A stretch of DNA of 64,000 bases from Hyphomicrobiales bacterium. GTDB lineage: Bacteria > Pseudomonadota > Alphaproteobacteria > Rhizobiales > Devosiaceae. Numbering within the stretch: position 1 is the first letter of the stretch; each line of letters opens with the position of its first letter. Shown here one piece after another: positions 17,220-52,843 of this stretch. The DNA lies in the NCBI GenBank assembly GCA_004144345.1, contig SEEL01000013.1, forward strand, positions 1 through 64,000. Reading direction: 5' to 3'. A program made the position numbers and the translations under genes. The notes under the pieces were generated by a model. That model searched no databases and was not told where the DNA came from. It saw only the letters and a program-made list of their open reading frames with translations.

Positions 17220-18461
17220 ATGAACGCGAAAGCTCGAACCGACATCCTGCCCGCGCTGGACGCGCTACTCGATGCCCAAGCAACTCCCTTGATGGTCTTC
17301 AGCTTGCTCATCGAACCATATCGATTGGGTGACCATGCAGTCCTTGACCGCGCAGTCGCGCGGCTGTGCGAGCTCAGGCAGCATCCGCATCTCACCCACT
17401 TCTTCGAGGCTTGCGCGCGGATATCCGCAGGTGAGGCCCTCGCTGCTTTGAATGCTCTTGATGCCCTGAGTGGTCGTCCGGCCTCCAGCCCCGAGCTGGG
17501 GAGTCAAACCGGACCAGTAGCGGCCTCTATTCGAGCCGCGGCGCTGGAGAAGTTAGGCCGGTACGAGGATGCATACGCGGCGTTCAGTGCGATGAATGCC
17601 ATGCGCCTAGGCAGAACCCCTACCCCATTCGCCGACTACAGAAAAAGCGTGCTCGCACAAACAAGGGCACCGCTCGCCCCGCTTCCCCCGGCCAACCGAC
17701 CTGGCTATTTCCAAATGCTCGGCTTCGCCCGATCAGGGACGACGCTTCTGGAAAATGCCCTAGATGCGCATCCTCAGATTGAGACTTTTGAGGAAGTCGG
17801 TGCCCTAAACCGAGCACGTGAGCAGTTGGAGATGGAAAAGCCCAGAACGGCTGATCCTGAGCGCATGCGGGCTGCAATGTCAGCGGCCAGAGATCGATAC
17901 TACCAGGAACTCGACGGCCATCGCCGGAAGCGGGCAGCCGGCATCTTTGTTGACAAAATGCCGCCTCGGTCCGCGGAGGCCCGCTTCCTTATCCGGATGT
18001 TTCCAGAGCAACGCTACATATTTCAGATCCGCCATCCGTTTGATGTCGCTCTGAGCTGCTTTCGGCAGTTGTTTCAGTCGAACCCTGTAACCGACCAGTT
18101 TCGGACCTTTCAGTCGACTGTCGCGGCGTATGACTTTGCCATGACAGAGTGGTTTGCTCTTTTCGGACTTGATCATCCCCTCGTGCACTATGTCCGATAC
18201 GAGGAACTGGTCAGCAGCTTTGAGCCCACCATGCGCCAGACCCTCTCATTCCTGGGGGCTGCGTGGGACCCGGCTGTCCTGACGTTTGTGGATCACGCGA
18301 AGCAACGGGCAGGCAAGACACCCAGTTACTCAAAGTTGCGACAGGGGCTGCAGATCGGCGTTCAGTCAAACTGGTTCCACTACAGATTTCTCTTCGAAAC
18401 GCGCGAGGCGGAGCCGCTGCACAGATGGGCGGCCTTTTTCCGCTATCCTACGGTGATGTGA
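17220..18461 (+). CDS. sulfotransferase family protein
   Basis: 413 residues. The C-terminal half has both PAPS-binding signatures: the 5'-phosphosulfate loop GFARSGTTLLENALDAHPQI (about 163-182) and the 3'-phosphate loop IRHPFDVALSCFRQLF (about 275). The N-terminal ~130 residues are helical with a TPR-like look (LEKLGRYEDAYAAFSAM). It would move sulfate from PAPS to a glycan, lipid or protein. Its base composition is clearly lower in GC than its neighbours and its codon use is more relaxed. It is also bounded by a short direct repeat, so it was probably acquired by transfer. No partner genes are nearby. Confidence 0.9.
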   Translation: MNAKARTDILPALDALLDAQATPLMVFSLLIEPYRLGDHAVLDRAVARLCELRQHPHLTHFFEACARISAGEALAALNALDALSGRPASSPELGSQTGPVAASIRAAALEKLGRYEDAYAAFSAMNAMRLGRTPTPFADYRKSVLAQTRAPLAPLPPANRPGYFQMLGFARSGTTLLENALDAHPQIETFEEVGALNRAREQLEMEKPRTADPERMRAAMSAARDRYYQELDGHRRKRAAGIFVDKMPPRSAEARFLIRMFPEQRYIFQIRHPFDVALSCFRQLFQSNPVTDQFRTFQSTVAAYDFAMTEWFALFGLDHPLVHYVRYEELVSSFEPTMRQTLSFLGAAWDPAVLTFVDHAKQRAGKTPSYSKLRQGLQIGVQSNWFHYRFLFETREAEPLHRWAAFFRYPTVM

Positions 18462-18520
18462 GGTCTAGCGCGGCGTACCCGCTCAACAGGCCGGTTCTAC
18501 ATCGTTGCTGACGGCGGGGA

Positions 18521-18544
18521 CGGTGGGCGCGTGAAGGGCTGAGC
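18521..18544 (+). repeat. direct repeat flanking the sulfotransferase segment, copy 2
   Basis: CGGTGGGCGCGTGAAGGGCT plus GAGC matches the permease 3' end at 17070-17094 with one base missing. It could be a target duplication or the leftover 3' end of another MalG-type permease gene, since GTGAAGGGCTGA encodes the common VKG tail. Confidence 0.6.
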
Positions 18545-18576
18545 CGCCGCCGGCGACAAGCGGCTCCGCGCGGAGC

Positions 18577-18873
18577 TTAGCGGGCGGGGCCGAGGGTCAT
18601 GGCGACGTCGACCGTGTCGCCGACGGTGACCGCGAGCTTCGTCCGCACGGCGGCCTTCAGCGGCAGCAGATAGATGCCGTCCTTGGGAAAGAGCGAGGTG
18701 GTGAAAGTGACGCCACCGATGGTCGCCTCGACCGGGATAACGCCCCAGCCATAGCTCACGCGCTTCGCCGCGGCGCGGATGCCGGCTGTTTCGGCCTCGG
18801 GCACCGGCGCGTAGAAGAAGGGCGCGGGGCCGCGCCAGTGGATGATGGTGGACCGGAAGGCAAAGCGCAGCAT
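18577..18873 (-). CDS. DUF1905 family protein
   Basis: A 98-residue cytoplasmic protein beginning LRFAFRSTIIHWRGPAPFFYAPVP. Family features are the IHWRGPAPFFY start, WGVIPVEATIGG, and the C-terminal LAVTVGDTVDVAMTL. The fold is a small beta-barrel of unknown role, sometimes fused to YdeI/OmpD-associated domains. It lies directly beside tRNA-Gly on the same strand. Confidence 0.85.
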   Translation of the reverse strand: MLRFAFRSTIIHWRGPAPFFYAPVPEAETAGIRAAAKRVSYGWGVIPVEATIGGVTFTTSLFPKDGIYLLPLKAAVRTKLAVTVGDTVDVAMTLGPAR

Positions 18874-18890
18874 CGTCCCTCGCGGGCAGC

Positions 18891-18964
18891 TGGAGCGGGT
18901 GAAGGGAATCGAACCCTCGTCGTAAGCTTGGGAAGCTTCTGCTCTACCATTGAGCTACACCCGC
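18891..18964 (-). tRNA. tRNA-Gly (anticodon CCC)
   Basis: The minus strand reads GCGGGTGTAGCTCAATGGTA at the 5' end, a CTTCCCAAGC anticodon arm, GGTTCGATTCC in the T arm, and an encoded CCA. Acceptor arms GCGGGTG and CACCCGC pair, and the anticodon CCC lies at 18930-18932. It is nearly the same as E. coli tRNA-Gly(CCC). Confidence 0.96.
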
Positions 18965-19090: not shown

Positions 19091-20155
19091 CTAGCGCGGG
19101 GTTAGCGTTGCTTTCATGACATAGACATTGTAGGGGCCGAACTGGCTCATGAGAAAATGGAAGCTAAGGCCGTCTGCGCTGATCCAGGAGGGCGTGAGGT
19201 AGGCGTTGTAGGCGGCGTCGTAATTCGACGTTTCGACCAGTGTTTCGGCCTCCGACCACGGCCCTTCCGGCCGATCAGCGAAGCGGATTTCGATCGCCGG
19301 CTTCAGCTCGTTGAGCGTGGTGTACATCCATTTGCCGAGGCCGGCGTTCCAGGCCAGCGAGCCTTCGCCCACGCCCGGCTTGATGATCTCGGCTGCAGCG
19401 GCCTGCGAATCTCCCCAGGCCACGCCGTCCCAGTATTCCCAGGCCGCATTGTCCTGCAGCTGGGCGGCGAGGACGCGGGCAGCGCGGGCGCCGCCGAAGC
19501 GGCCGCAGGCGCTGCCAATGGCGTAGACATACTGGCCGTCCTCATTGCCGATACCGGGCTGGGCCGACAGCGCCAGCATGTTGAAGCTGCTCTTGTGGCT
19601 GGCGAAGTCGTCGAGGCCCTTGTCCCAGGTCGTGCCGCCATCGGCCGAGGAGATGAAGCGCGACGAATTGCAGATCCACACGCCGCCGATATCGGCAAAG
19701 CCATGCACCGACATGTAGTGCAGATAGAGCGTATCGCCGACGGCGACCATGGCAGTCGGGATCTTGGTCTGCTCGCTGGTGAATTTGAGCAGATGCCTGC
19801 CCTCGGCAGCGGCGATGGCGCGGCCATCATCGCCCGTCAGCCAATCGTCGATGGTGACGCCGTCGGAGGGGTCCATGTCGGTGGTGAAGGCAATGACGTT
19901 GGACCGCCAGTTCGGCCCGAATTTCGGGCACGAGTCACCGCGCCAGCCGAAGGTGTCGCCAAAGGCGATGACGATCCTGCCGTCGATCTCGGCCATGGTG
20001 CCAAGGTCCGTGCCGCAGATATCGAAACCCTGCATTGGTGACGGCGCTTCGGGCCCGGTGAGGGGACCCACGAGCTCGGAACGCACATCGAACCCGGCTG
20101 CGTGAGCAACCGTGCCGGCGGCGGCGATGATGAGTGCGGCAAGCGCGGTTCGCAT
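19091..20155 (-). CDS. secreted DUF4185 (GH183-type) protein, probable endo-D-arabinanase
   Basis: 354 residues with a signal peptide (MRTALAALIIAAAGTVAHA, cut near residue 19), so it acts outside the cytoplasm. DUF4185 is a beta-propeller family. The characteristic motifs are GTDLG (48-52), FGDTFGWRG (65-73) and NWRSN (82-86); Asp50 and Asp67 are candidates for the catalytic acids. Members of DUF4185 were shown to be endo-D-arabinofuranases (GH183) that cut mycobacterial arabinogalactan and lipoarabinomannan. It is the last gene of an operon with an ABC importer and GH116, 10 bp after the ATPase, which supports this role. Activity on this exact substrate is inferred. Confidence 0.82.
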   Translation of the reverse strand: MRTALAALIIAAAGTVAHAAGFDVRSELVGPLTGPEAPSPMQGFDICGTDLGTMAEIDGRIVIAFGDTFGWRGDSCPKFGPNWRSNVIAFTTDMDPSDGVTIDDWLTGDDGRAIAAAEGRHLLKFTSEQTKIPTAMVAVGDTLYLHYMSVHGFADIGGVWICNSSRFISSADGGTTWDKGLDDFASHKSSFNMLALSAQPGIGNEDGQYVYAIGSACGRFGGARAARVLAAQLQDNAAWEYWDGVAWGDSQAAAAEIIKPGVGEGSLAWNAGLGKWMYTTLNELKPAIEIRFADRPEGPWSEAETLVETSNYDAAYNAYLTPSWISADGLSFHFLMSQFGPYNVYVMKATLTPR

Positions 20156-20165
20156 GGCGGAGCTT

Positions 20166-21284
20166 TCAGGTGAGATGGGAAAGATAATCGTCCTGCCACG
20201 GCCGCTGCGACTGCAGCGTCAGGCCGCTCTTGTCGAAGACGTGGGTGAAGGCGTCGGCGAAATCGAAGCGCACTGCCTCGCCCGCCCTGGCCCCGAGGAT
20301 GCCGCGCCGCGTCGCGGTGATCGCCGTGCCGTCGGCGATGCCGGCATGGAGCACGGTCTCGGCGCCGAGAATTTCGGTCGAGGTGATCTCCGCGGCCAGC
20401 GGACCAGCAGCCGACAGGGTGAGATGCTCCGGGCGCACGCCAATGGTCACCGCGTCGCCCACGCCGGCGTTGCCCTGGCGAGCCGAGAGCGAAATGCGCG
20501 GGCCGCTGCCGTCGAGCTCGATCACCAGCCGGTCGCCGGCTTCGACCACCCTGCCCTTCAGGAAATTCATCTGCGGCGCGCCGAGGAAACCGGCGACGAA
20601 CTGGTTGCGCGGGCGGGCATAGAGTTCGACCGGCGAGCCGGTCTGCTCGATGATGCCCTCCCGCATCACGACGATCCGGTCGGCCATGGTCATGGCCTCG
20701 ACCTGATCATGCGTCACATAGATCATGGTGGCGCCGAGCCGATCATGCAGCTGCGAAATCTCCGACCGCATCTTGACCCGCAGCTCGGCGTCGAGGTTCG
20801 ACAGCGGTTCGTCGAACAGGAACACTTTCGGTTCCTTGACGATGGCGCGGCCAATGGCGACGCGCTGGCTCTGGCCGCCCGACAGCTGATTGGGCCGCCG
20901 CTTCAGCAGATGCTTGATCTGCAGGATGTCCGCAGCCTTTGCCACGCGTTCCTTGATCTCGGGCTCGGGCGTGCGCTGGTTCTCAAGGCCGAAACGCAGA
21001 TTTTCCTCGACGCTCATATGCGGGTAGAGCGCATAGGATTGGAACACCATGGCCATGCCGCGCGCCGAGGGCAGCAAATGATCGCAGCGCGCCCCGTCGA
21101 GCCAGATTTCGCCGGCGCTGGTTTCCTCCAGCCCCGAGATCATGCGCAGCAAGGTAGACTTGCCGCAGCCGGAGGGACCGACAAACACGGTGAAGCTGCC
21201 ATTCTCGACGGTGAGGTCGATGCCGTGGATGACTTCAAGGTTCTGGAAGCTCTTGCGTACCTGCTTGAGTTGAAGCTCGGCCAA
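20166..21284 (-). CDS. sugar ABC transporter ATP-binding protein (MsmK/UgpC type)
   Basis: 372 residues. The ABC core has Walker A GPSGCGKST, signature LSGGQSQRVAIGRA, Walker B VFLFDEP and the switch histidine in VTHDQVEAM. The C-terminal OB-type regulatory domain is typical of CUT1 sugar ATPases. It energises import by the permeases encoded upstream at 23864-25618. The start is taken as TTG at 21284, because a GGAGG sits five bases before it and it follows the GH116 stop almost directly. The ATG at 21359 would overlap GH116 by 74 bases. It may also serve the ATPase-less importer at 13620-17092. Confidence 0.93.
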   Translation of the reverse strand: MAELQLKQVRKSFQNLEVIHGIDLTVENGSFTVFVGPSGCGKSTLLRMISGLEETSAGEIWLDGARCDHLLPSARGMAMVFQSYALYPHMSVEENLRFGLENQRTPEPEIKERVAKAADILQIKHLLKRRPNQLSGGQSQRVAIGRAIVKEPKVFLFDEPLSNLDAELRVKMRSEISQLHDRLGATMIYVTHDQVEAMTMADRIVVMREGIIEQTGSPVELYARPRNQFVAGFLGAPQMNFLKGRVVEAGDRLVIELDGSGPRISLSARQGNAGVGDAVTIGVRPEHLTLSAAGPLAAEITSTEILGAETVLHAGIADGTAITATRRGILGARAGEAVRFDFADAFTHVFDKSGLTLQSQRPWQDDYLSHLT

Positions 21285-21285
21285 A

Positions 21286-23847
21286 TCAGCCTCCAATCGT
21301 GAGTGACGCGCTGTCGCCAGCGCCGAGAGTGCGGGCGATGGTCGCGCTGGTGCCGGCAAAGCTCAGCGTCTCGAGCGGCAGGCGGCCGTAGCGGACCTCG
21401 AGCGTCACCTCGTTGCCGCTGCGCCGGACGACGCCCCAGCCTTCGCCCACCGACCAGAACCACATTCCATCCGTGCCGCCCACCGGATCAAAGCCGATGG
21501 CGCCCCGCGTCATGTCGTAGCTGAGACGCGACCATGCGTTGACGAGGGCGAAGCTCGACATCGAACGTGCGTAGTAGCTGCCGCATTCGATGTCGTTCCA
21601 GGGATTGCGGCGATGGCCGTCATGACGGGCGCGCGCCGAACCGACAACGGCGAGGCCCTCATCGACCAGCCCACGCAGGATCATGTGCGACGCCACGGCA
21701 TATTCGATGCCGGTCCACACTTCCTCCGAATAGGGCGCCGGCACCGCCGGCTTGGTGGTGCCCTCGGGCCAGGTGGCGATCAGCACGCCGCCCTCATCCT
21801 CATAGGCATAGACGCGGCAGGGGTTGAAATGATCGGCGAGCGTGGCGCGGTAGTTATGCGTGTGAATGGCGCCGAGCGCCGCCTTCACCTTGGCCGGTTC
21901 GAGGAAGCTGCCGAGGCCGCAGAGATCGGCATGCCATTGCCCCAGCATCTGGTCGGTCGCGCAGCCATCGCCGAACTGGTATTTCATCTCGCCATATTCA
22001 TCGGACCAGTACGTATCCATGAAGTTGTCGGCGAGCACGCCGACCTTGCCCGCCGCATTGTGGAAGCGGGCGACGAGCGCCTTGTCGGCGAGGTCGGTCT
22101 TCTGGACGAAATAGCTGCCGTTGAAGAGTTCGCCATTGAGATAGCGCGCGCCGGCGTCGCCCACGCGGTCGAGTTCGTCGGCGAAGGCCGCATCACCGGC
22201 GGCACGGCCCATCTCGGCGCCGGCCTTCAGGGCCGCCACATACATGGTCGAGAGCCAGGCGTTGGGACCGAACAATTCCATGTCGAGCGTATGGTGCTGG
22301 CGGCCCCACAGGATGCCGGTGCGCTCCGGGTCCCACTGGTCCGGATTGTCGGCCGACCAGCTATATTCGAGAGCTGCCCGTACCTTTGGCCACAGTCCCT
22401 TGAGCCATTCGGTGTTGCCCGAAATCTTCCAGTCGCGGAAGGTCTTGATGATGGAGCCGTACTGGCCGTCGGCGCACGGATTGAGCGGGAACAGGTCGGA
22501 ACCGAGCGGAATGATCTGCCGGAAGGTCAGCCCGCCATTGGGCAGCTGGTTGTAGGCATAGTCGGTGTCGCGCAACGAACGCTCGAGCGCGGGGAAGAGG
22601 TAGGGCAGCGTCTGCTGGTAGTTCCACACATGGGTGCAGGAGCCCTCGCAGCTGCCCTCATTGGTGAACTGGCCCTCCCAGGCCCAGAGCTCGCCATTGT
22701 CGAGCCGCAGGACCGTGCCGGTGCGCAGGATGCTCATCGTGCCCTGCACCGCATCGACGATATCGAGCGGCAGCGAGGTGCCGAACAGCGTGTCGCGGAA
22801 CGCGAAGGTGGGATCGCGCAACTGGTCCCAGCGGGCAAATGCCTCGGCGAGCACGGCGCGGGAATCCGGCCACTGGCTGGCATAGTAGTTGCGCCAGGTA
22901 CCGGCCGCGCCATTGACGGCGTTGGGGCGCCAATAGACCTGCCCGACCGGGAAGTGCCAGGCGATGGCAAAGCGGACGCGCCGCGTCTCGTTGGGTGCGA
23001 TCGTGACGCGCGCCGCGAGCGTGCCGTGCTCGGGCTGGTCGAACATGTTCTTGTTGAGCCGCGGCGTGTCGTAGTGCCGTTCGGGCAGGCGACCCGCGCG
23101 TGCGAATTCGCGCCAGAACAAATTGAGGTCGTCGAACCACTGGCCGCGGAAATGATAGTCCATGTGGTCGACATCGGTGGCATCGGTCGCGATGGTGAGA
23201 TTGCCGCGCTGCCAGTCGGGCAGTTCGTCGCGCGCCGTCAGATGCAGCGATCTGACACCGGCCTCATCGGCAAAGCTGTGGAGGCCGTTCTGGCAGCCAT
23301 GGTTCCCCAGCGTGCCGCCGATGGTGTAGTCGATCGGCGCGGCGCCGGTGTTGGTGATCTCGATCTCGAACATCGCGGCGGGCAGCGAGCTGTCGCGATC
23401 ATTGGTCGGGATGAACGGGCTCCACGCCGTGAGCCGCACTTGGCCGGGGAAGCGCTCATCATGGAAGTCGACCTCGGCCACCGGGAAGCGGCCGGTGAAG
23501 GTCGTGGCCCGGAAATGCGGCGCGCCGGCAAGCGTGTTGCGATTGGCGCCGAAGCCAAAGCCGTCGAAGAACTTGCGCGTACTGGGCGAGCCCGTCGGCA
23601 CGCCCTCATAGGGGCCGTTCAGGACGCGGGCATCGAGCAGTTTGCCGCCCTGCTCTGCCTTGATGGCGAAATGGCTATAGCCGTTGAAGCTCTGCAGGCC
23701 CGGCCGGTTGCGGATCGACCAGTCGACCAGCCGTCCACTGCCCGACAGCGACATGCCGCCGGCGCCAATGCCGCCGAGCGGAAAAGCGATGTGACGCGCG
23801 CGATCACCCTCATAGACAAAGCGCGAATTGGCGGCGGGGACAGTCAT
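21286..23847 (-). CDS. GH116 family glycoside hydrolase, candidate exo-beta-D-arabinofuranosidase
   Basis: 853 residues with no signal peptide, so cytoplasmic. The N-terminal domain starts GIGAGGMSLSGSGRLVDWSI and the C-terminal (alpha/alpha)6 barrel carries the GH116 active-site segments NEGSCEGSCTHVWNYQ (about 393-408, nucleophile Glu) and LDMELFGPNAWLSTMY (about 518, acid/base Asp). Known GH116 activities include beta-glucosidase, glucosylceramidase and exo-beta-D-arabinofuranosidase. The last was found in an actinobacterium that degrades mycobacterial arabinan with GH183 and GH172 partners, the same set seen here. The ATG at 23847 has a Shine-Dalgarno (GGAG); an in-frame GTG lies two codons upstream. 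It is probably cotranscribed with the importer. Confidence 0.9.
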   Translation of the reverse strand: MTVPAANSRFVYEGDRARHIAFPLGGIGAGGMSLSGSGRLVDWSIRNRPGLQSFNGYSHFAIKAEQGGKLLDARVLNGPYEGVPTGSPSTRKFFDGFGFGANRNTLAGAPHFRATTFTGRFPVAEVDFHDERFPGQVRLTAWSPFIPTNDRDSSLPAAMFEIEITNTGAAPIDYTIGGTLGNHGCQNGLHSFADEAGVRSLHLTARDELPDWQRGNLTIATDATDVDHMDYHFRGQWFDDLNLFWREFARAGRLPERHYDTPRLNKNMFDQPEHGTLAARVTIAPNETRRVRFAIAWHFPVGQVYWRPNAVNGAAGTWRNYYASQWPDSRAVLAEAFARWDQLRDPTFAFRDTLFGTSLPLDIVDAVQGTMSILRTGTVLRLDNGELWAWEGQFTNEGSCEGSCTHVWNYQQTLPYLFPALERSLRDTDYAYNQLPNGGLTFRQIIPLGSDLFPLNPCADGQYGSIIKTFRDWKISGNTEWLKGLWPKVRAALEYSWSADNPDQWDPERTGILWGRQHHTLDMELFGPNAWLSTMYVAALKAGAEMGRAAGDAAFADELDRVGDAGARYLNGELFNGSYFVQKTDLADKALVARFHNAAGKVGVLADNFMDTYWSDEYGEMKYQFGDGCATDQMLGQWHADLCGLGSFLEPAKVKAALGAIHTHNYRATLADHFNPCRVYAYEDEGGVLIATWPEGTTKPAVPAPYSEEVWTGIEYAVASHMILRGLVDEGLAVVGSARARHDGHRRNPWNDIECGSYYARSMSSFALVNAWSRLSYDMTRGAIGFDPVGGTDGMWFWSVGEGWGVVRRSGNEVTLEVRYGRLPLETLSFAGTSATIARTLGAGDSASLTIGG

Positions 23848-23863
23848 CGGCACTCCAAGGAAA

Positions 23864-24718
23864 TCAGTTGCGGATGCCCGAGAAGGTCACACCCTGGATG
23901 ACCATCTTCTGGGCAACGAGAAACAGCAGCACGACGGGCAGGATGGACATGCTCATCGCCGCCATCACCACCGAGAGATTGCCCTGGCTCATATAGCCGC
24001 GCAGCAGATCCATCGCGATCGGAAGCGTCATCGCCTGCTGTGACTCGATGAGGGCGCGCGGCTGGAAGTAATTGTTCCAGGCGCCGGTGAAGGTGATGAT
24101 GGCGAGGGCAGCGAGCGCCGGCCGCAACTGCGGCAGCGAGATGCGCCAGAAAATCTTGAAGTAGCCGGCACCATCCATCAGCGCCGCTTCCTCGAGCTCC
24201 TTGGGCTGGCTGCGCAGGAACTGGCGCAACATGAAGATGCCGAAGCTCGAGGTGAGCCCCATCAGCACGAGGCCCATCGGGTTGTTGAGGAGGCCGAGCT
24301 TGGCGTAGCCGAGGTAGATCGGCAGGATCGTCACCTGCGCCGGGAACATCAGGCCGATCAGCATCACGAAGAACAGGCTGTCGCGCCCCGGAAAGCGCAG
24401 ACGCGCATAGGCGAAGGCGGCAAGCGTACAGGTGACGAGCTGGCCGATGGTGACCAGCACCGCGACATAGAGACTGTTCCAATAAATCTTGAGGAACGGC
24501 ACCGCCGAATTGAGCACCGCTTCGTAATTGGCGAGATCGAGGGTCGGCGGCAGGAAGCTCGGCGGCATCCTGTAAGCTTCCGCCGCCGGGCGGAACGACA
24601 TCGAGAACAGCCACATGAAGGGCATCAGCATCAGGACGCCCATCAGCGCCAGCACGGCGATGATGGCCCAATCGACGATGCGGGCGGCGCGGCGGGTCTG
24701 CATGCTGCGGGTCTGCAC
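23864..24718 (-). CDS. sugar ABC transporter permease, MalG-like
   Basis: A 284-residue inner membrane protein with six predicted membrane segments and the EAA coupling motif ELEEAALMDGAGYFKIFWR, which contacts the ATPase. It ends in GVTFSGIRN, as usual for MalG-type CUT1 permeases. It lies three bases after the partner permease and 16 bp before GH116. With the other members of this operon it would import an arabinan-derived oligosaccharide. Confidence 0.93.
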   Translation of the reverse strand: MQTRSMQTRRAARIVDWAIIAVLALMGVLMLMPFMWLFSMSFRPAAEAYRMPPSFLPPTLDLANYEAVLNSAVPFLKIYWNSLYVAVLVTIGQLVTCTLAAFAYARLRFPGRDSLFFVMLIGLMFPAQVTILPIYLGYAKLGLLNNPMGLVLMGLTSSFGIFMLRQFLRSQPKELEEAALMDGAGYFKIFWRISLPQLRPALAALAIITFTGAWNNYFQPRALIESQQAMTLPIAMDLLRGYMSQGNLSVVMAAMSMSILPVVLLFLVAQKMVIQGVTFSGIRN

Positions 24719-24721
24719 GGC

Positions 24722-25618
24722 TCAGCTCTCCACAAAGCGGCGCGAGCCGACCAGCTGGATGATGGTGACGACAAGGACGAGCAGCATCATGGTGACCGAC
24801 ACTGCCGCCGCATAGCCGAGCTCGAAGGAGCCGAAGGCTTCGTCGACGAGATAGATCGACAGCGACCGGGTGGAGTCGCCCGGGCCACCGCCCGTGAGGA
24901 TCATGATCGACTCGAACACCTGCAACGCGCCGATGGTGGCGAAGACGATGCAGAAGAACAGCACCGGCGAGATGTAGGGCAGCGTGATGCGGGTGAAGCG
25001 GCGCCAGGGCGAGGCGCCATCCATCGACGCCGCGTCCATGATCGGCTGGGGCACGCCCTGCAGCGCGGCCACCAGGATGATCATGAAGAAGCCGGTGTTC
25101 TTCCACACATCCATGATCACGATCGAGGTGAGCGCGACCTTGGAGGAAGAGAGCCAGGGCACCGCCGGCAGGCCAAGCTGCAGCAGGTAGTAGTTTATGA
25201 CGCCGAAATCGACGCTGTAGAAATAGCTCCACACGACCGCGACAAACGCCGCCGAGATGATCACCGGCAGGAAGAAGGCGAGACGGAAGAAGTAGAGCAG
25301 GAACGCCGGCATCACCCGGTTGAGCGCCAGCGCCAGCAGCAGCCCGACCAGCACGTTGCAGGTCACGGCGAAGAAGGCGAAGCGCAGCGTATTCCAGAAG
25401 ATCTCGAGCGACCGGCGCTCGGAGAAGAAGCGGACATAGTTCTCGAAGCCGACCCAGTCGGCGCCGAAGCTGATGTCGTAATAGGTGAAGCTGAGGACGA
25501 TGGTGATGGCGACGGGCACCAGCACGAAGGCAGCATACAGGACGAAGGATGGCACGACGAACAGATAGCCCGCCCGCATCTGCGCTTTCTTCAAATCCGA
25601 CAGTCGCCGCTTGGTCAT
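24722..25618 (-). CDS. sugar ABC transporter permease, MalF-like
   Basis: A 298-residue inner membrane protein of the CUT1 MalF/UgpA class: AGYLFVVPSFVLYAAFVLVP at the N-terminus and the EAA motif PIMDAASMDGASPWRRFTR, followed by LTGGGPGDSTRSL, which is typical of these permeases. It pairs with the MalG-like gene downstream. The 59-bp gap after the binding-protein gene holds a strong hairpin. Confidence 0.93.
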   Translation of the reverse strand: MTKRRLSDLKKAQMRAGYLFVVPSFVLYAAFVLVPVAITIVLSFTYYDISFGADWVGFENYVRFFSERRSLEIFWNTLRFAFFAVTCNVLVGLLLALALNRVMPAFLLYFFRLAFFLPVIISAAFVAVVWSYFYSVDFGVINYYLLQLGLPAVPWLSSSKVALTSIVIMDVWKNTGFFMIILVAALQGVPQPIMDAASMDGASPWRRFTRITLPYISPVLFFCIVFATIGALQVFESIMILTGGGPGDSTRSLSIYLVDEAFGSFELGYAAAVSVTMMLLVLVVTIIQLVGSRRFVES

Positions 25619-25637
25619 CGTTCTGCTTCCGAAAAGA

Positions 25638-25663
25638 GCCCATGCCGGCTGGCCGGCATGGGC
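25638..25663 (-). promoter_or_regulatory. intercistronic hairpin after the binding-protein gene
   Basis: A perfect 11-bp stem, GCCCATGCCGG at 25638-25648 and its complement at 25653-25663, around the loop CTGG. There is no T run. It lies between the binding-protein stop and the permease start and probably protects the upstream message from decay. Confidence 0.65.
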
Positions 25664-25677
25664 GGTCCCGGGAGGGA

Positions 25678-26934
25678 CTACTGGGTGACGCGCTTCAGAC
25701 GCTCGAACGAACGGGTGAGTTCGCTGTCAGCGGCAGCCACGGCATCGGGGATCGACATCTCGTCGGTCATGACGGCCTGGAAGTAGCGCATGAAGATCTG
25801 GTCGACTTCCTGGAAGTTGGCCGGCGAGGGCACCGCGACGGTGCTCGGCAGCGTCTCGTAGTAGAGCGGCGCGCTGGGCGGGAACTTGAGGAAGTTCTCG
25901 GTCTCGGCCGCCGACTTACGGCCCGGCACCGCGCCACCGAGGTCACCCTCGGCCACCTGCGTCTCATAGGACAGCAGTTCCGTCACCAGCGCCTTAGCCA
26001 GATCAACCTGCTGCGATTTCGACGAAATGCCGTAGGCGCCGAAGCCGATCACCGTGTTGTTGTTGGCCCGGCCGGGCTGCACCGCAATGTCCATGTCGAG
26101 GTTCGACGACACGGCGTTCTGCACGATCCAGTGCCCGCGCGAGATCATCGCGATCTGGCCGGCGAAGAACTGGTTCTCGACGCCCTCCTGACCGACCTGC
26201 GGCGACACTTTGCGCACATGGATCAGGTCGTAGAGAAACTGCATCGTCTCGGCGATCTTGGGATCGGTCATGTTCGACGCGGTCCAGTCGGGGGTGATCG
26301 GCGAGGTGCCGTTCGAGAAGAACCACGGGATCAGGCCGAAGAAGAAGTTCGGCACTTCGTAGCCGAACTGGGTGACGTTGCCATTGGCGTCGCGCTTGGT
26401 CAGCTTTTCGGCAATGTCGGCGAACTCTTCCCAGGTCCAGGTCTTGCTGGGCGTCGGGATACCGGCTTCCTCGAAGAGCTTCCGGTTGTAGTTCGTCATA
26501 ATGTTGTTCCACGTCGAGGGGATGAAGTAAGTCGTCCCCTTGTACGCGGTGAGCTCGAACAGCTTGGGATCGAAGTCGGCGAAGTCCTCGTTGCCATCGA
26601 TGAAATCGTTCAGCGGAATGAACATGTCGCGCGCCGCAAAGCTCTGCAGCGTCTCGACCGCCGTGTGGTACACGTCATATTGCTCGCCGGCATTGTACTG
26701 CTGCAGCACGCGGCTGACGAAATCGCCCCAGCCACCGCCGATCGCATCGACGCCGAGTTCCACTTCGACATTGGGATAGTCTTCGTTGAAGCGCGCGATG
26801 GCGTCCTGCGTGGCCTTGACCTGGGCCTCGCCACCGAATGTCATCAGGCGCAGCTTGGCGCTGACATCCGACTGCGCCAATGCCGGCGAAATCATCGCCG
26901 TAGCAAGCAGCAATCCTGCGATCAGTTTGTGCAT
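25678..26934 (-). CDS. family 1 extracellular solute-binding protein of the D-arabinan-associated importer
   Basis: 418 residues with a signal peptide (MHKLIAGLLLATAMISPALAQ). It is a CUT1 binding protein: LRLMTFGGEAQVKATQDAI, then YKGTTYFIPSTWNNIMTNYN, and an aromatic-rich binding region (FFFGLIPWFFSNG). It would capture an oligosaccharide in the periplasm. A GGAGGAGA Shine-Dalgarno precedes the chosen ATG; the frame is open 12 codons further upstream. It is the first gene of the operon and is divergent from the LacI regulator across an operator array. Confidence 0.92.
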   Translation of the reverse strand: MHKLIAGLLLATAMISPALAQSDVSAKLRLMTFGGEAQVKATQDAIARFNEDYPNVEVELGVDAIGGGWGDFVSRVLQQYNAGEQYDVYHTAVETLQSFAARDMFIPLNDFIDGNEDFADFDPKLFELTAYKGTTYFIPSTWNNIMTNYNRKLFEEAGIPTPSKTWTWEEFADIAEKLTKRDANGNVTQFGYEVPNFFFGLIPWFFSNGTSPITPDWTASNMTDPKIAETMQFLYDLIHVRKVSPQVGQEGVENQFFAGQIAMISRGHWIVQNAVSSNLDMDIAVQPGRANNNTVIGFGAYGISSKSQQVDLAKALVTELLSYETQVAEGDLGGAVPGRKSAAETENFLKFPPSAPLYYETLPSTVAVPSPANFQEVDQIFMRYFQAVMTDEMSIPDAVAAADSELTRSFERLKRVTQ

Positions 26935-27150
26935 CGTCTCTCCTCCTTTGCCGCGTCGGCAAATTTCCACCGTTCGCAGAATCGGCTCCTGACCGGCTCC
27001 TGCGTCACAATCGGGCTCTCGCCCCGAACGTCACCGGATAGTGCGGCGACAGACTCGGTCGAATCCCCCCTAAGCCACTGTGATCAGTACTGAAATCGAC
27101 ATCACCGCAGGTTTTTCCTGTCTCGTGGCTGAGCGGACCATAACAACTCT

Positions 27151-27187
27151 GAATGCATTTGCAAATGCATTCACAAATGCATTTACA
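27151..27187. promoter_or_regulatory. operator array: three AATGCATT units at 12-bp spacing
   Basis: AATGCATT occurs at 27152, 27164 and 27176, separated by TGCA and CACA and followed by TACA. The first two units form a perfect 22-bp palindrome (27151-27172) centred on TTTGCAAA. It lies between the divergent binding-protein and lacI-type genes, 31 bp before the latter, and is the likely binding site of that regulator. The rest of 26935-27217 shows no gene. Confidence 0.7.
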
Positions 27188-27217
27188 AGCTCGCGCCAAT
27201 CTGGTTACCCCTAAGGT

Positions 27218-28222
27218 ATGAGCACCATATCCAAGGTCGCCGAGCGGGCGGGCGTATCCAGGACCACCGTGTCGCACGTGATCAATCACGCGGACCGGGT
27301 GTCGAAGTCCCTGCGCGACCGGGTGAATGCGGCCATCGATGAGTTGGGCTATGCGCCGAACCCGCAGGCGAAAAGCTTGCGGACGGGACGCACCAACATG
27401 ATCGCGGTGCTCATCCCGGATATCGGAAACCCGTTCTACACCGAGATGGTCAAGGCGGCGCAGTCCTCGCTGGAGCAGGCCGGACTCGAGGCCCTGATCT
27501 ACAATACCGACGTGCCCGGCGGTAACTGGAAGACGCATGGGCGGGACTATCTGCGCCAGCTCAACCGCAAGCGCGTCGACGGGCTCATCGTTGGCGACTT
27601 CGCCTTGCACGGCATGAACGAGGAACTGACGCGGCGCGACACGCCGACAGTGTTCATCGGCCAGCTCGCCAGCCAGGCCGTCGACAGCGTCTGCATCGAC
27701 GATTTCGGCGGTGGCTATCTGCTGGGCGAGCATCTTGCCAAGCAGGGGCACAAGCAGGTCGTGGAAGTCACCGGCCCCCCCACCTTCGGCTCGGCCATGG
27801 CGCGTGCCGCGGGCTTCGAAAAAGCCCTGCGCGACAATGGCGTGAAGTTCGGTACGAAGCAGCGCTATGAGGGCAGCTATCTGCCGCCATCGGGCCGCGA
27901 CGCCGTGCGCTGGATCAGCACGCTGACGGGCAAGGAGCGGCCCACCGCAGTGTTCTTCGGCAATTACCTGATGGCGATGGGCGCCTTGGCCGAAATCCAC
28001 GACCAGGGCATGCGCATTCCCGACGATATTTCGGTCGTGGTGTTCGGCGACCTGCCGCAGCTCGAATATGTGCGGCCGCGACTGACGCGCGCCGGCGAAG
28101 ATCCGGGCGCGCTGGCGCGGCGCGCCACGGCCATGCTGCTCGAGCGGCTCAACGGCAGCTATGACGGCCCGCCCCGCACGGAGATCGTCCCCTGCACGCT
28201 CAAGGTGTTCGATTCCGCCTGA
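27218..28222 (+). CDS. LacI-family transcriptional regulator of the putative D-arabinan locus
   Basis: 334 residues. The N-terminal helix-turn-helix ISKVAERAGVSRTTVSHVIN and the hinge segment LGYAPNPQAKSLRTGRTN precede a periplasmic-binding-like effector domain (VLIPDIGNPFYTEMVKAAQ). It probably represses the divergent importer-hydrolase operon and the GH172 gene downstream until a D-arabinose-containing sugar is present. The effector is inferred from context. It is divergent from the binding-protein gene, with an operator array between them. Confidence 0.93.
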   Translation: MSTISKVAERAGVSRTTVSHVINHADRVSKSLRDRVNAAIDELGYAPNPQAKSLRTGRTNMIAVLIPDIGNPFYTEMVKAAQSSLEQAGLEALIYNTDVPGGNWKTHGRDYLRQLNRKRVDGLIVGDFALHGMNEELTRRDTPTVFIGQLASQAVDSVCIDDFGGGYLLGEHLAKQGHKQVVEVTGPPTFGSAMARAAGFEKALRDNGVKFGTKQRYEGSYLPPSGRDAVRWISTLTGKERPTAVFFGNYLMAMGALAEIHDQGMRIPDDISVVVFGDLPQLEYVRPRLTRAGEDPGALARRATAMLLERLNGSYDGPPRTEIVPCTLKVFDSA

Positions 28223-28233
28223 GCACTTCCCAT

Positions 28234-28249
28234 CCGGCCGCAAGGCCGG
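28234..28249 (+). promoter_or_regulatory. small GNRA-loop hairpin between lacI and GH172
   Basis: CCGGCC-GCAA-GGCCGG in the 37-bp gap. It could stabilise or attenuate the transcript. No T run follows, so it is not a standard terminator. Confidence 0.4.
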
Positions 28250-28259
28250 CGTTCAACTC

Positions 28260-29402
28260 ATGGACTTGGCAATGACAAACAGCTTCAACGGTCTCGGCGT
28301 GAACCTATCCAACCTCTACCGGTTGAGCCCTGCCAAAACGCGCTCGATCTCGCCCGAGAATTTTACCGGGGCCAAGGGTGCTGGCGGCATGGCGACGGAA
28401 GGCACCGGCGCCATTCATGCACGCGGGCTCGGGCCGGATGGCAGCGGCAAGGGCTGGAAGGTCTCACCCTCCATCCGCATCGAGCCGGGCGAGAAGCGCG
28501 TCCTTGCCGATATTCGCGGTATGGGGGCGATTCAGCAGATCTGGCTCACCACCGCGAACCTTCGCTGGCGCAGCCTGATCATCCGCATGTGGTGGGACGA
28601 TCAGGAGCACCCGTCCGTCGAAGCGCCGCTCGGCGATTTCTTCTGCTCGGGCTGGGGCCAGTTCGCGCAGGTGAACTCGCTCGCCGTCTGCGTCAATCCC
28701 GGCCGCGCATTCAACTGCTATTGGGAGATGCCCTTCCGCAAGGCGGCCCGCATCGAGATCGAGAACACCGATGCCAGCGAATTCGGCATCATCTACTATC
28801 AGATCAATTACGCGCTCACCGACGTGCCGGCAGACGCCGCCTACTTCCACGCCAAGTTCCGGCGCACCAACCCCCTGCCCTATGGCACCGACTACACCAT
28901 CATCGATGGCATCAAGGGCGCCGGCCACTATGTCGGCACCTACATGGCCTGGGGGGTGAACAATGCCGGCTGGTGGGGCGAAGGCGAAATCAAGTTCTTC
29001 ATGGATGGCGATCGCGACTACCCGACGATCTGCGGTACCGGCACCGAGGACTATTTCTGCGGCGCCTACAATTTCGACGGCGGCGTGGTCGATGACACGA
29101 TGGACAGCCGCTATCGCGAATACACCACGGCCTATGCCGGCCTGCCGCAGGTCCTCCGTCCGGATGGCACCTATCGCAGCCAAACCCGCTTCGGCATGTA
29201 CCGGTGGCATCTGAGCGACCCGATCCGCTTCGAGAGCGACCTCAAGATCACCATCCAGGCGCTTGGCTGGCGCACCGAAAAGAAGGATCGGCGTTATCTG
29301 CCGCTGCAAGACGACATCGCCTCGGTCGCCTTCTGGTACCAGACCCTCCCCAGCGTCCCGTTCGAACCAATGCCGTCACCGGACCAGCTTGAAATCATCT
29401 GA
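28260..29402 (+). CDS. GH172 (DUF2961) glycoside hydrolase, candidate exo-alpha-D-arabinofuranosidase
   Basis: 380 residues with no signal peptide, so cytoplasmic. DUF2961 features are clear: RSISPENFTGAKGAGGMATEG near the start (bounded by residues 28-48), WWDDQEHPSVEAPLGDFF, and GTGTEDYFCGAYNF with Glu263 matching the catalytic glutamate of this family. Known GH172 activities are difructose dianhydride I hydrolysis/synthesis and exo-alpha-D-arabinofuranosidase on mycobacterial arabinan. With DUF4185 and GH116 close by, the second is favoured. An alternative ATG lies at 28272. It follows the LacI gene by 37 bp and may share its transcript. Confidence 0.9.
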   Translation: MDLAMTNSFNGLGVNLSNLYRLSPAKTRSISPENFTGAKGAGGMATEGTGAIHARGLGPDGSGKGWKVSPSIRIEPGEKRVLADIRGMGAIQQIWLTTANLRWRSLIIRMWWDDQEHPSVEAPLGDFFCSGWGQFAQVNSLAVCVNPGRAFNCYWEMPFRKAARIEIENTDASEFGIIYYQINYALTDVPADAAYFHAKFRRTNPLPYGTDYTIIDGIKGAGHYVGTYMAWGVNNAGWWGEGEIKFFMDGDRDYPTICGTGTEDYFCGAYNFDGGVVDDTMDSRYREYTTAYAGLPQVLRPDGTYRSQTRFGMYRWHLSDPIRFESDLKITIQALGWRTEKKDRRYLPLQDDIASVAFWYQTLPSVPFEPMPSPDQLEII

Positions 29403-29595: not shown

Positions 29596-31017
29596 TCAGA
29601 AGCCGGGCTTCCATTGCACTGAGGACTGGCGGGTCAGTTCGAGCAACAGTTCCTGGCCATAGCCGGCGCCGACGCCGCTGGCGCCGACGGGTTCCGACGT
29701 GCCGCCCGGTGCCTTGCGCGGGGGCGCGTTGATCTTGATCATGCCCGAGCGGATTTCGTGCAGGAACTTGAGCGACCGCGACGACGAGTTGGAGCACAGC
29801 ACGGCCGCGAGGCCGTAGCGGTGATCGTTGGCGAGCGACAGGGCCTCGTCGAAATCGTCATAGGGGACGACCGGCGCCACGGGGCCGAACGTCTCGTCCG
29901 CCATGACGGGCTGGTCGGCGGTGACGCCCGTGATGACGGTGGGCGGATAGAACCATCCCTTGCGGTCGAGCCGCGCCCCACCCGTATGCACCACCGCACC
30001 GGCAGCCACCGAGCGATCCACCTGGTCGATGATCTTTTCGAGCTGGATGCGATCGACGATGGGGCCCATGCCGACATTGTCGAGCAGGCCGTCGTCCTGC
30101 ACGATCGCCTTGGACTGACGGGTCAGCGCCGCAACGAAGGGCTCAAAGATCTGGCGGGCGACATAGACACGCTCGGTCGCGGTGCAGAGCTGGCCCGCGT
30201 TGAAATAGGCCGCATCGATGGCGAAGGCGGCGGCCTTCTCGATGTCGACGGTCTCATCGATGATCAGCGGGTCCTTGCCACCGAGTTCGAGGATGACCTT
30301 CTTGAGATTGCGGCCGGCCGAGGCGCCGATGCGGCGGCCGGTAGCTTCCGAGCCGACGAACAGGATGGCGCTCACATCCGGATGCTCGACGATCGGCTCG
30401 CCCGCGCCGGGGCCATTGCCCAGCACCAGATTGACGACGCCCGGCGGCAGTTTCGAGAAGGCGAGCTCGGCGATGCGCCGCGAGGTGATGGGTGTCTTTT
30501 CCGACGGCTTCCACACCACGGTGTTGCCCACCGCGATCGCCGCGGCGACGTTTTCCACACCGAGTGCTACCGGGTAGTTCCACGGCACGATGACGCCCAC
30601 GACGCCGCGCGGGAAGCGCTGCTGGAAGTTGAGCTCGCCATAGGCGGCCTGCTGGCTGCCCGAGCGGATATGAACCGCCAGTTCGCCGAACTGGCGCGCG
30701 GCGCCGGCAGCGCCCGCGATCTCGAGGCGCGACAGCGAAAGGGGCTTGCCCATTTCGAGGGTGTTGAGGCGGGCGAGCTCCTCCTGATGCGCCATCAGGA
30801 TGTTGGCGATCTCGTTGAGCGCGGCGCGACGGGCGACGGGCGCGAGACCCGACCAGCCCCGGCCGGCCGCAACAGCGGCGGCGACGGCGTGGTCGACGTC
30901 GTTCTTGCTGCCGCGCGGGATCTGGCTCAGCCGATCCTCGGTGGCCGGGTTCACGACGTCGAGCGCTTCAGTGCTGTCAGATGGGACGGCCTGATTGCCG
31001 ATCCAGTTGGTTTCCAT
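29596..31017 (-). CDS. NAD(P)-dependent aldehyde dehydrogenase
   Basis: 473 residues of the ALDH superfamily: VVPWNYP-type segment GVIVPWNYPVALG, cofactor loop FVGSEATGRRI, general base Glu in VILELGGKDP and nucleophile Cys in FNAGQLCTATERVYV. It oxidises an aldehyde to an acid. Next to a tartronate-semialdehyde-reductase-like gene, candidates are glycolaldehyde, succinate/ketoglutarate semialdehyde or lactaldehyde; the sequence does not decide. It lies 22 bp after the next gene on the same strand, in one operon. Confidence 0.92.
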   Translation of the reverse strand: METNWIGNQAVPSDSTEALDVVNPATEDRLSQIPRGSKNDVDHAVAAAVAAGRGWSGLAPVARRAALNEIANILMAHQEELARLNTLEMGKPLSLSRLEIAGAAGAARQFGELAVHIRSGSQQAAYGELNFQQRFPRGVVGVIVPWNYPVALGVENVAAAIAVGNTVVWKPSEKTPITSRRIAELAFSKLPPGVVNLVLGNGPGAGEPIVEHPDVSAILFVGSEATGRRIGASAGRNLKKVILELGGKDPLIIDETVDIEKAAAFAIDAAYFNAGQLCTATERVYVARQIFEPFVAALTRQSKAIVQDDGLLDNVGMGPIVDRIQLEKIIDQVDRSVAAGAVVHTGGARLDRKGWFYPPTVITGVTADQPVMADETFGPVAPVVPYDDFDEALSLANDHRYGLAAVLCSNSSSRSLKFLHEIRSGMIKINAPPRKAPGGTSEPVGASGVGAGYGQELLLELTRQSSVQWKPGF

Positions 31018-31039: not shown

Positions 31040-31954
31040 TTAGGCGGCGTCGGTCGGCTTCAGCCGGATCTCGATGCCAGACTGCGCCTCGAACAGGCGC
31101 ATCACCGAGCCCATGAAGTCCTCGTCGCGGTAGTTCTTCTCGCTGGTCTCGAGCAGATCGAGAACGGCCTTGCCGACAGGCAGGTCGATGTCGAGATCGC
31201 GGGCGAGTCCCATGGCGAGGCGATGGTCCTTGGCAGCGAGGCGCGAGGCAAAGCCCGGCGTGTAGTCGTGCTTGAAGGCCTTCCCCGGCAGGACCATGTT
31301 GAGCACCTTATTGGAGGTGCCCGTCTTGTCCGAGAGGGCGATGATCTGCTCGAGCGAGACGCCCGACTTGATGCCGAACGAGGCGCATTCGGCGATGATC
31401 GCGACCATGCCGGCGGCCAGATAGTTGTTGACCAGCTTGATGGTGGTGCCGGCGCCGAGGGCGCCGATATGCATGATCTCGCTCGACATCGCTTCGAGCA
31501 TCGGGCGCGCTTCCTCGAGCGTGGCGGCATCGCCGCCCACCATGAAGGTCACGGTGCCCTTTTCGGCATCGACCACGCCGCGACCCACGGGGCTGTCGAG
31601 CATGCGCACGCCGACCTTGGCCAGTTCCGCGCCGACATGGCGGCTGGTGGTGGGATCGACTGTGCTCAGATCGACATAGATGAGCCCCGCATGGGCGCCG
31701 TCGATGATACCGCCAGCTTCGAGCGCCACGCGGCGGACGTCCGGTGCATCAGGCACCATGGTGAAGACGACGTCGACAGCGCGGGCCAACTCCGCCGCGC
31801 TCGAGGCGCCCTTGGCGCCCCGTTCGACGAAGGCATCGATCGCCGGCTGGGCGACGTCCCACACGGTGAGGTCGAAGCCCTTGCGCAGCAGATTGCCGGC
31901 AAGGCCGCGGCCCATGGCACCAAGGCCGATGAAGCCGATCTTTTTCGCAGCCAT
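31040..31954 (-). CDS. 3-hydroxyisobutyrate/tartronate semialdehyde reductase family dehydrogenase
   Basis: 304 residues of the beta-hydroxyacid dehydrogenase family. Motifs: Rossmann GFIGLGAMGRGLAGNLL, the substrate segment DSPVGRGVVDAEKGTVTFMVGG and the catalytic lysine in GTTIKLVNNYL. Family members reduce tartronate semialdehyde to glycerate (GarR/GlxR) or oxidise 3-hydroxyisobutyrate. An HpcH/HpaI aldolase of the GarL type is encoded at 43444, which would make tartronate semialdehyde from hexarates; that link is inference. Confidence 0.9.
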   Translation of the reverse strand: MAAKKIGFIGLGAMGRGLAGNLLRKGFDLTVWDVAQPAIDAFVERGAKGASSAAELARAVDVVFTMVPDAPDVRRVALEAGGIIDGAHAGLIYVDLSTVDPTTSRHVGAELAKVGVRMLDSPVGRGVVDAEKGTVTFMVGGDAATLEEARPMLEAMSSEIMHIGALGAGTTIKLVNNYLAAGMVAIIAECASFGIKSGVSLEQIIALSDKTGTSNKVLNMVLPGKAFKHDYTPGFASRLAAKDHRLAMGLARDLDIDLPVGKAVLDLLETSEKNYRDEDFMGSVMRLFEAQSGIEIRLKPTDAA

Positions 31955-42142: not shown

Positions 42143-42171
42143 TTGACACTGACAAAAGCTCCTTTTACATA
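42143..42171 (+). promoter_or_regulatory. candidate sigma70-type promoter for gene pair B
   Basis: TTGACA at 42143-42148, 17-bp spacer, TACATA at 42166-42171. It would give a leader of about 75 bases before the gene at 42252. The rest of the 352-bp gap 41900-42251 shows no gene. Confidence 0.5.
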
Positions 42172-42251
42172 TGATTGCAAGTTCACGGCATACGTGCCCT
42201 GCTTGCGCAGACGAACTCTCTCCCTTCGGCTACAAAGGCGTCTACCTTTCC

Positions 42252-51352: not shown

Positions 51353-52843
<1,491 letters not shown>

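Follow-up and report, generated by a model that had tools for sequence, protein, structure and literature searches.

A probable D-arabinan utilisation locus in a Gram-negative relative of Devosia

Gene content and layout of the locus

The window analysed here (64,000 nucleotides, the whole stretch of DNA under study) comes from a Devosia relative, which is a Gram-negative alphaproteobacterium, and contains a single locus in which genes for a secreted GH183 protein, a GH116 and a GH172 protein, a CUT1 importer and a LacI-family regulator were all recognised using Pfam. Every named part scored far over its cut-off, confirming the clustering of these genes that had been pointed out in an earlier note on this DNA. 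Six genes lie on the minus strand and form the importer operon, whose last gene is that of GH183 (DUF4185; 19091..20155; 251.9 bits, cut-off 39.5). The others encode the importer ATPase of UgpC/MalK type (20166..21284, ORF 20166-21359; ABC_tran 119.8 bits, OB_MalK and TOBE_2), GH116 (21286..23847, ORF 21286-23853; 174.8 bits for the N-terminal and 130.2 bits for the catalytic part), permeases in the MalG-like (23864..24718; BPD_transp_1, 69.9 bits) and MalF-like slots (24722..25618; BPD_transp_1, 59.9 bits), and the solute-binding protein (SBP; 25678..26934, ORF 25678-26970; SBP_bac_1, 94.1 bits). Divergent from the operon, on the plus strand, are the LacI-family regulator (27218..28222; LacI 67.0 bits, Peripla_BP_3 93.2 bits) and GH172 (DUF2961; 28260..29402, ORF 28161-29402; 329.2 bits).

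Likely gene starts, as read from the sequence, differ slightly from those in the ORF list, and the matches of relatives mostly begin near residue 36-40: GH172 probably starts at ATG 28260, 37 bp past the LacI stop, the ATPase at TTG 21284, directly behind the GH116 stop, GH116 at ATG 23847 and the SBP at ATG 26934. An ORF of 599 aa (23844-25643) was rejected as a gene, since it overlaps both permeases, lacks a Pfam match and was dropped by codon-position composition. The genes that follow GH172 (ALDH, 29596-31017; a dehydrogenase, 31040-31954; DUF6772; RpiR; Ldh2) were likewise rejected as members of the system, having no match at E <= 1e-10 in the loci of relatives, where the stretches compared extend only about 2.5-3.6 kb beyond GH172.

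Signal-peptide-like segments are found at the N-termini of the SBP and of GH183 (the latter read by eye and from hydropathy), and no such segment is present in GH116 or GH172. The import-then-degrade layout proposed earlier is supported. The ATPase matches the NCBIfam UgpC subfamily (449.4 bits, cut-off 432), and the best solved relatives of the SBP are Lmo0181 (87.5 bits) and an arabino-oligosaccharide-binding protein (75 bits). Describing the locus as complete was nevertheless an overstatement, because no D-arabinose catabolic gene (isomerase or kinase) was recognised among the genes scanned around it and the outer-membrane step is unexplained. No outer-membrane uptake gene was found in the locus, nor any TonB-receptor match in the genome; two secretins, looked at as a hint of outer-membrane export, are encoded there. 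Fucose_iso_C is absent from each of the nine GH183-bearing family genomes, this one included, although the difference in co-occurrence with fucose isomerase (0/9 vs 17/127 genomes) is not significant (p = 0.60), and a literature search for D-arabinose catabolism in Devosia returned no match.

Relatives, active-site residues and trees of the three enzymes

The GH183 protein is a candidate secreted endo-D-arabinanase. Its best solved relative is EndoMA1 (148 bits), and in the alignment its D50, D67, R219, E264 and Y316 correspond to D33, D51, R198, E243 and Y293 of EndoMA1, so that the catalytic Asp33 and Asp51 and the essential Glu243 all have their counterparts; loss of the active site, which would have spoken against the assignment, is therefore not observed. 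The nucleophile, acid/base, third acid and Arg are kept in 13 of 13 Devosia/Verrucomicrobiota rows. As for the substrate contacts of EndoMA1, R198 and Y293 are kept, while W138 is replaced by F (F153), P141 by G and L292 by A. The AlphaFold model of the protein is closest to EndoMA1, then to AraH2. In the tree, which excludes three partial Streptomyces rows, GH183 is placed on a long branch and resolution is poor outside the Devosia/Verrucomicrobiota branch.

GH172 is a candidate cytoplasmic exo-alpha-D-arabinofuranosidase, its best solved relative being ExoMA1 (434.8 bits, next best 143.4). The catalytic Glu pair is present (E274 and E296, numbering of the 413-aa ORF) and N304 corresponds to ExoMA1 N253, an Asn described as blocking fructose and replaced by Gly in aFFase1. 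It groups with ExoMA1 in the tree (SH-aLRT 96), apart from aFFase1, BACUNI and DgGH172c (SH-aLRT 99), and thus not in the difructose dianhydride clade; specificity should be read from clades with caution, since DgGH172c is likewise active on alpha-D-Araf (PMC10115798).

GH116 is a candidate exo-beta-D-arabinofuranosidase, also cytoplasmic. It scores 429.9 bits with its best solved relative, ExoMA2, against at most 66.7 bits with beta-glucosidases, a far closer similarity that argues against the glucosidase placement raised earlier as a possible objection. E393, H408, R445 and D524 (numbering of the 855-aa ORF) correspond to ExoMA2 E431, H446, R483 and D557, and both residues described as reading D-Araf instead of glucose (His and Arg) are kept. 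The nucleophile, acid/base and His/Arg are common to 13 of the 15 aligned rows, of which L140 differs and TxGH116 is represented by fragments only. In its tree the protein falls provisionally on the ExoMA2 side (92), but the outgroup consists of fragments and has a long branch, and ExoMA2 itself pairs with the GH116 of another Devosia-family genome, G494 (97), not with the window clade. Taken together, the relatives and residues of the three enzymes and the GH183 model bear out the identities given in the earlier note and point to a likely specificity for D-arabinofuranose.

Conservation, regulation and origin

GH183 exceeds the Pfam cut-off in 9 of 136 Devosiaceae genomes, including that of the window. 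The order SBP-permeases-GH116-ATPase-GH183//LacI is intact in seven of the other eight, which rules out contamination or an assembly accident; in the eighth (G483), GH183 and GH172 sit on separate 3-kb contigs, and in G439 a distant GH172 (31%) takes the place of the ExoMA1-type enzyme. One contig scan for GH183 used patterns from the window's own protein and therefore favours close relatives. Together, the survey of family genomes and the contig scan support the alphaproteobacterial host claimed earlier.

Upstream of LacI, two overlapping palindromic operator-like sites (27153..27182, no strand) are spaced 12 bp apart, at 27153-27170 (0 mismatches) and 27165-27182 (2 mismatches). The block is conserved across eight aligned intergenic regions, and a search of the genome allowing up to 2 mismatches returned only these two sites (control 0). 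The LacI of the locus has counterparts of 65-81% identity in seven relatives. The local control expected of a divergent LacI regulator is thus supported by conserved paired sites, and the operator accompanies the LacI-GH172 module in other Devosia.

Window-type GH116 was found (E <= 1e-50) in 11 of 397 genomes of the order, the window's included, and nine of the ten other Rhizobiales have SBP-permease-permease-GH116-ATPase and, divergent from it, a LacI-like gene of 27-30% identity. In Sinorhizobium sp. B11 and others, this operon has the same backbone as that of the window, and the Sinorhizobium GH116 shares 59% identity and all four active-site residues with the GH116 of the locus, but the operon's LacI is different, there is no GH183 or GH172 match nearby and the Devosia operator is lacking (best 4-6 mismatches). 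The locus looks like an assembly of a Rhizobiales GH116-importer operon and a Devosia LacI-GH172 module with an added GH183.

A rival explanation is that the genes are chance neighbours, the GH116-importer operon serving another sugar and GH183 and GH172 being unrelated additions. The importer may indeed serve another sugar where no GH183 or GH172 match lies near the operon, as in 15-20 kb stretches of nine of the ten other Rhizobiales, and other Devosia have LacI-GH172 pairs with neither GH183 nor GH116 close by. We regard this explanation as very improbable: in each of the seven relatives with an unbroken locus the importer operon ends with GH183, the operator lies between both units, and the GH116 E/H/R/D residues are as in ExoMA2, also in Sinorhizobium.

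Proposed function and sources of D-arabinan

D-arabinan is a polymer familiar chiefly from the cell walls of mycobacteria. Judging by its sequence, the locus is likely a utilisation locus for D-arabinan, or D-arabinofuranose oligosaccharides, of a Devosia relative. The secreted GH183 would cleave alpha-D-arabinan, the binding protein and CUT1 importer would bring in the fragments, and the cytoplasmic GH116 and GH172, going by family, residues and clade, would strip beta- and alpha-linked D-Araf to D-arabinose, which may be consumed via a route encoded elsewhere, without fucose isomerase. The divergent LacI would govern both transcription units from the tandem palindrome and probably be released by a D-arabinose-related inducer.

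The trio with an ABC importer is already known from the D-arabinan PUL of Microbacterium arabinogalactanolyticum (EndoMA1/2, ExoMA1, ExoMA2), where these genes are induced by D-arabinose (PMC10509167); new are the proteobacterial host and its arrangement. Both loci combine GH183, GH172 and GH116 with an importer having an SBP_bac_8-type binding protein, and in both the endo-enzyme is secreted and the exo-enzymes lack a signal (PMC10509167), with identities over the compared stretches of 57.6% (GH172), 37.4% (GH116) and 36.3% (GH183). The Microbacterium PUL has four GH183 genes, an isomerase and a kinase, whereas the window has one GH183, no recognised D-arabinose gene, a Gram-negative host and a LacI with paired operator. 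PUL42 of Dysgonomonas gadei (Bacteroidota) also unites GH183, GH172 and a putative GH116 (PMC10115798), but it has three genes for GH172 and one for a fucose isomerase, where the window locus has an ABC importer. DUF4185 proteins are also reported from other Gram-negatives or non-actinobacteria (Myxococcus xanthus, M. amalyticus; PMC10115798), and, unlike for the window locus, the sections consulted describe no GH116/GH172/importer cluster for Myxococcus. Our literature search gave no match linking DUF4185 with proteobacteria, and GH183 in alphaproteobacteria, rhizobia or Devosia was not among the matches listed.

Dead mycobacteria and other Mycobacteriales, with their arabinogalactan or lipoarabinomannan, are a plausible food source, if short of an even chance. 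Mycobacterial arabinan is capped by beta-D-Araf, a substrate that ExoMA2 requires (PMC10509167) and that GH116 is predicted to remove; against this, neither a galactofuranosidase nor a mannosidase was recognised among the genes of the locus, the sequence holds nothing specific to mycobacteria, and alternative D-arabinan sources exist (PMC8707391). It is possible, but somewhat more doubtful, that the food comes from kindred Gram-negative alphaproteobacteria, as capsules of D-arabinan or as other glycans containing D-Araf. The capsule of Devosia submarina (CPS-1) is a D-arabinan of alternating alpha-1,5/alpha-1,2 D-Araf (PMC8707391), although this repeat lacks the beta-D-Araf that GH116 is predicted to need. 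Strong DprE1-like genes occur in 17 of 136 Devosiaceae, with UbiA in 8/8 DprE1 regions examined (membrane proteins beside DprE1 had no PDB match and no Pfam family), and two alphaproteobacterial plasmid DUF4185 genes adjoin DprE1/DprE2/UbiA-like genes. Recycling of the organism's own D-arabinan was rejected as far as tested, as the DprE1-like query had no match in the nine GH183 genomes (0/9 vs 17/127 genomes, a gap that is not significant, p = 0.60).

More tentatively still, D-arabinan may be an ordinary alphaproteobacterial currency independent of mycobacteria, with some Devosiaceae, Roseobacteraceae and Azospirillaceae building D-Araf glycans (DprE1/DprE2/UbiA-type pathway), other Devosia eating them via the LacI-controlled GH183-GH116-GH172-ABC system, and the Devosia/Verrucomicrobiota GH183 branch (W138 to F) tuned to Gram-negative D-arabinan. 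The D-arabinan capsule in the same genus makes it a testable question who eats whose D-arabinan. The enzymes might help to analyse the arabinans of mycobacteria and Gram-negatives, and the operon hints at what the substrate of the Sinorhizobium GH116-importer operon, annotated 'non-lysosomal glucosylceramidase', may be. If the proposed function is true, D-arabinan utilisation loci, which the literature consulted describes for Actinobacteria and Bacteroidota, would extend to a proteobacterium that imports by an ABC system before degrading and has a LacI switch of its own for the locus.

Locus layout and enzyme identity

The importer operon runs on the reverse strand from 26934 to 19091 in the order binding protein, two permeases, GH116, UgpC-type ATPase and DUF4185/GH183, and on the forward strand, from 27218, lie a LacI regulator and then DUF2961/GH172, the likely true starts of these genes being slightly off those of the ORF list. 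GH183 and the binding protein begin with signal-peptide-like stretches, as judged by eye and from hydropathy; GH116 and GH172 lack them. The host genome comprises 4,095,956 bases in 132 contigs, with a stated completeness of 99.99% and contamination of 2.02%.

For GH172, the best solved relative is the Microbacterium D-arabinan enzyme ExoMA1 (434.8 bits, the next 143.4), whose N253, which blocks fructose according to PMC10509167, corresponds to N304 in the window protein and to Gly in the difructose dianhydride enzyme. In a 41-row tree both proteins fall within a 30-row group (SH-aLRT 96) from which aFFase1, BACUNI_00161 and DgGH172c are split (99), placing the window protein with ExoMA1 and apart from the difructose dianhydride enzyme aFFase1. 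This grouping alone is no proof of specificity, because DgGH172c, on the aFFase1/BACUNI side, is also active on alpha-D-Araf (PMC10115798). A second GH172 of that side occurs in three Devosia loci, its specificity position being Cys (L057:3716-4729, L059:1022-2035 and L063:4227-5240).

GH116 scores 429.9 bits against ExoMA2 and at most 66.7 against beta-glucosidases, and it keeps the nucleophile and acid/base as well as the two residues reported to recognise D-Araf in ExoMA2 (PMC10509167); in a 15-row tree ExoMA2 pairs with the GH116 of another compared genome (G494) and not with the window group. GH183 matches EndoMA1 at 148 bits, with 111 of 306 compared positions identical. Loss of the DUF4185 active site was not seen: the equivalents of EndoMA1 D33, D51 and E243, together with R198 and Y293, are kept in all 13 Devosia and Verrucomicrobiota rows, W138 is replaced by F in the same 13, and P141 and L292 are also changed in the window protein. 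Its AlphaFold model (nine sequences; pLDDT 80.5, pTM 0.84) resembles EndoMA1 most, followed by mycobacterial AraH2.

The gene set claimed in the earlier note is real, it is conserved within the genus, and it is most likely a D-arabinan utilisation locus. Such a kind of locus was already known; what is new here is the proteobacterial host, the ABC uptake and the LacI regulator, no proteobacterial example having been found in the literature searched, where most subscription papers fell outside. The description of the locus as complete is not supported, as those window genes that were scanned included none recognisable as serving D-arabinose catabolism. Leftover candidates for this route, which fit no curated cut-off, include an aldehyde dehydrogenase (29596-31017) and a polyol dehydrogenase (51353-52843); the latter scored 323.3 bits against D-arabinitol 4-dehydrogenase, for which the cut-off is 600. 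The fucose isomerase domain Fucose_iso_C, present in 17 of 136 Devosiaceae genomes, had no match in the window genome or the eight other GH183 genomes; at least one TonB-receptor match was obtained in six of these nine, and none in the window genome, G487 and G439.

Just downstream of GH183, a tRNA-Gly (18891-18964) adjoins a sulfotransferase gene whose GC3 of 0.64 is unusually low, most neighbouring genes lying at about 0.8-0.9, and this region (17220-18964) is perhaps an island border. Elsewhere in the window, two genes for DUF6772 proteins, a family of no known function (32285-33163 and 42171-43106; 378.2 and 375.9 bits), flank a further ABC importer for sugars along with several dehydrogenases.

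Distribution, operator and proposed assembly of the locus

DUF4185 exceeds the Pfam cut-off in nine of 136 Devosiaceae genomes, including the window genome, which is the only one above it in a phylum-wide sample of 398 (three others gave weak matches). Seven of the eight other GH183 genomes in the family carry the intact operon, from binding protein to GH183, with divergent LacI, and in the eighth the locus genes are spread over small separate contigs. Six of the seven intact relatives have extra permease-like genes between LacI and GH172 that are absent in the window, with a binding protein among them in both relatives scanned with Pfam (L055, L061); in G439 a GH172 from a different group (31%) stands in place of the usual one. 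A tenth family genome, G514, has a weak DUF4185 match to the last 48 positions; this stretch (L064:2303-2559) lies beside LacI (66%) and its operator and is possibly a locus remnant. On the Devosia sp. A8/3-2 plasmid CP104975.1 (L091, 8329-18929), GH172 (72%) is divergent from LacI, accompanied by ABC genes and by a pair with the annotation GH127, and several annotated genes look short.

DUF4185 is not confined to Devosia. In one scan of named genomes the nearest GH183 outside the genus were those of four MAGs of Verrucomicrobiota, at 49-53% identity across the aligned region, with no GH172 or GH116 match in the stretches examined around them; plasmids of the alphaproteobacteria Tateyamaria and Indioceanicola carry DUF4185 at 26-31% identity, and Myxococcus xanthus has an active DUF4185 protein (PMC10115798).

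GH116 was found at E <= 1e-50 in 11 of 397 sampled Rhizobiales genomes, the window genome among them. The operon is kept in nine of the other ten, where a LacI-like gene (27-30%) diverges from it, and the tenth differs in gene order; neither GH183 nor GH172 was found within the 15-20 kb fetched around GH116 in these ten; loci L156-L164 and L095 hold this GH116-importer operon. Nor were the two found near the GH116 of Sinorhizobium sp. B11, which is annotated as a non-lysosomal glucosylceramidase, yet has the active site of ExoMA2.

Two overlapping palindromes, 12 bp apart, form one block upstream of LacI common to eight aligned intergenic regions. At up to two mismatches this operator pattern occurs at that sole place in the window genome and at one place in each of the eight other GH183 genomes, plus one extra site in G496; the reversed pattern gave no site in the nine, and at least two matches at three mismatches arose in one of 100 window shuffles. 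Among eight Devosia LacI loci lacking an intact GH183 gene (two from G514), the motif precedes LacI with 0-2 mismatches in seven and three in one; the best matches have 4-6 mismatches in the 11 other Rhizobiales GH116 loci; in L069, where no LacI was matched, the best has five. The operator thus appears to accompany the LacI-GH172 module of Devosia and would have brought the GH116 operon under its control. The locus may have been assembled from a Rhizobiales GH116-importer operon, this LacI-GH172 module and GH183; the direction and timing of the joining we infer.

Source of the D-arabinan

Mycobacteria, whose remains the earlier note had proposed as a possible food, are not established as the source. 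Capsules such as that of Devosia submarina KMM 9415T, a 20.7 kDa polymer of alternating alpha-1,5 and alpha-1,2 D-Araf, could serve instead, but the repeat given in PMC8707391 holds no beta-D-Araf, the predicted target of GH116, which favours arabinogalactan-like or unstudied polymers.

A Tateyamaria plasmid protein (263.4 bits to solved DprE1), used as query, gave DprE1-like matches in 21 of 136 Devosiaceae genomes at E <= 1e-10; 17 of these had matches no weaker than 5.6e-62. In the eight regions examined out of these 17, a UbiA-like gene is always adjacent, a DprE2-like gene is present in five, and in three there are also full-length relatives, two or three each, of a polytopic membrane protein of unknown family. 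Both UbiA proteins scanned are fused to a HAD phosphatase domain, which would fit the polyprenyl-phosphoribose route to pentofuranose glycans (PMC11127046). UbiA-GtrA-DprE1-DprE2-like clusters in Devosiaceae genomes G478, G446 and G427 (L116, L117 and L118) are candidates for D-arabinan synthesis among relatives of Devosia; their eight-segment membrane protein, with two or three relatives per cluster, had no Pfam family and no PDB match. DprE1-, DprE2- and UbiA-like genes also adjoin DUF4185 on the plasmids of Tateyamaria omphalii (NZ_CP019313.1; L089:2070-13017) and Indioceanicola profundi (NZ_CP030127.1; L090:12034-17671), and these DUF4185 genes therefore seem to belong to a pathway making D-Araf glycans.

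Because a DprE1-like gene is absent from all nine GH183 genomes, a gap that is not significant (p = 0.60), the window host is likelier to consume D-arabinan than to make it. With the Myxococcus and the two plasmid alphaproteobacterial DUF4185 proteins counted, which slightly lowers its odds, there is a tentative case, somewhat doubtful as it stands, that D-arabinan may be a common currency of alphaproteobacteria apart from mycobacteria, which some of them make and some Devosia eat.
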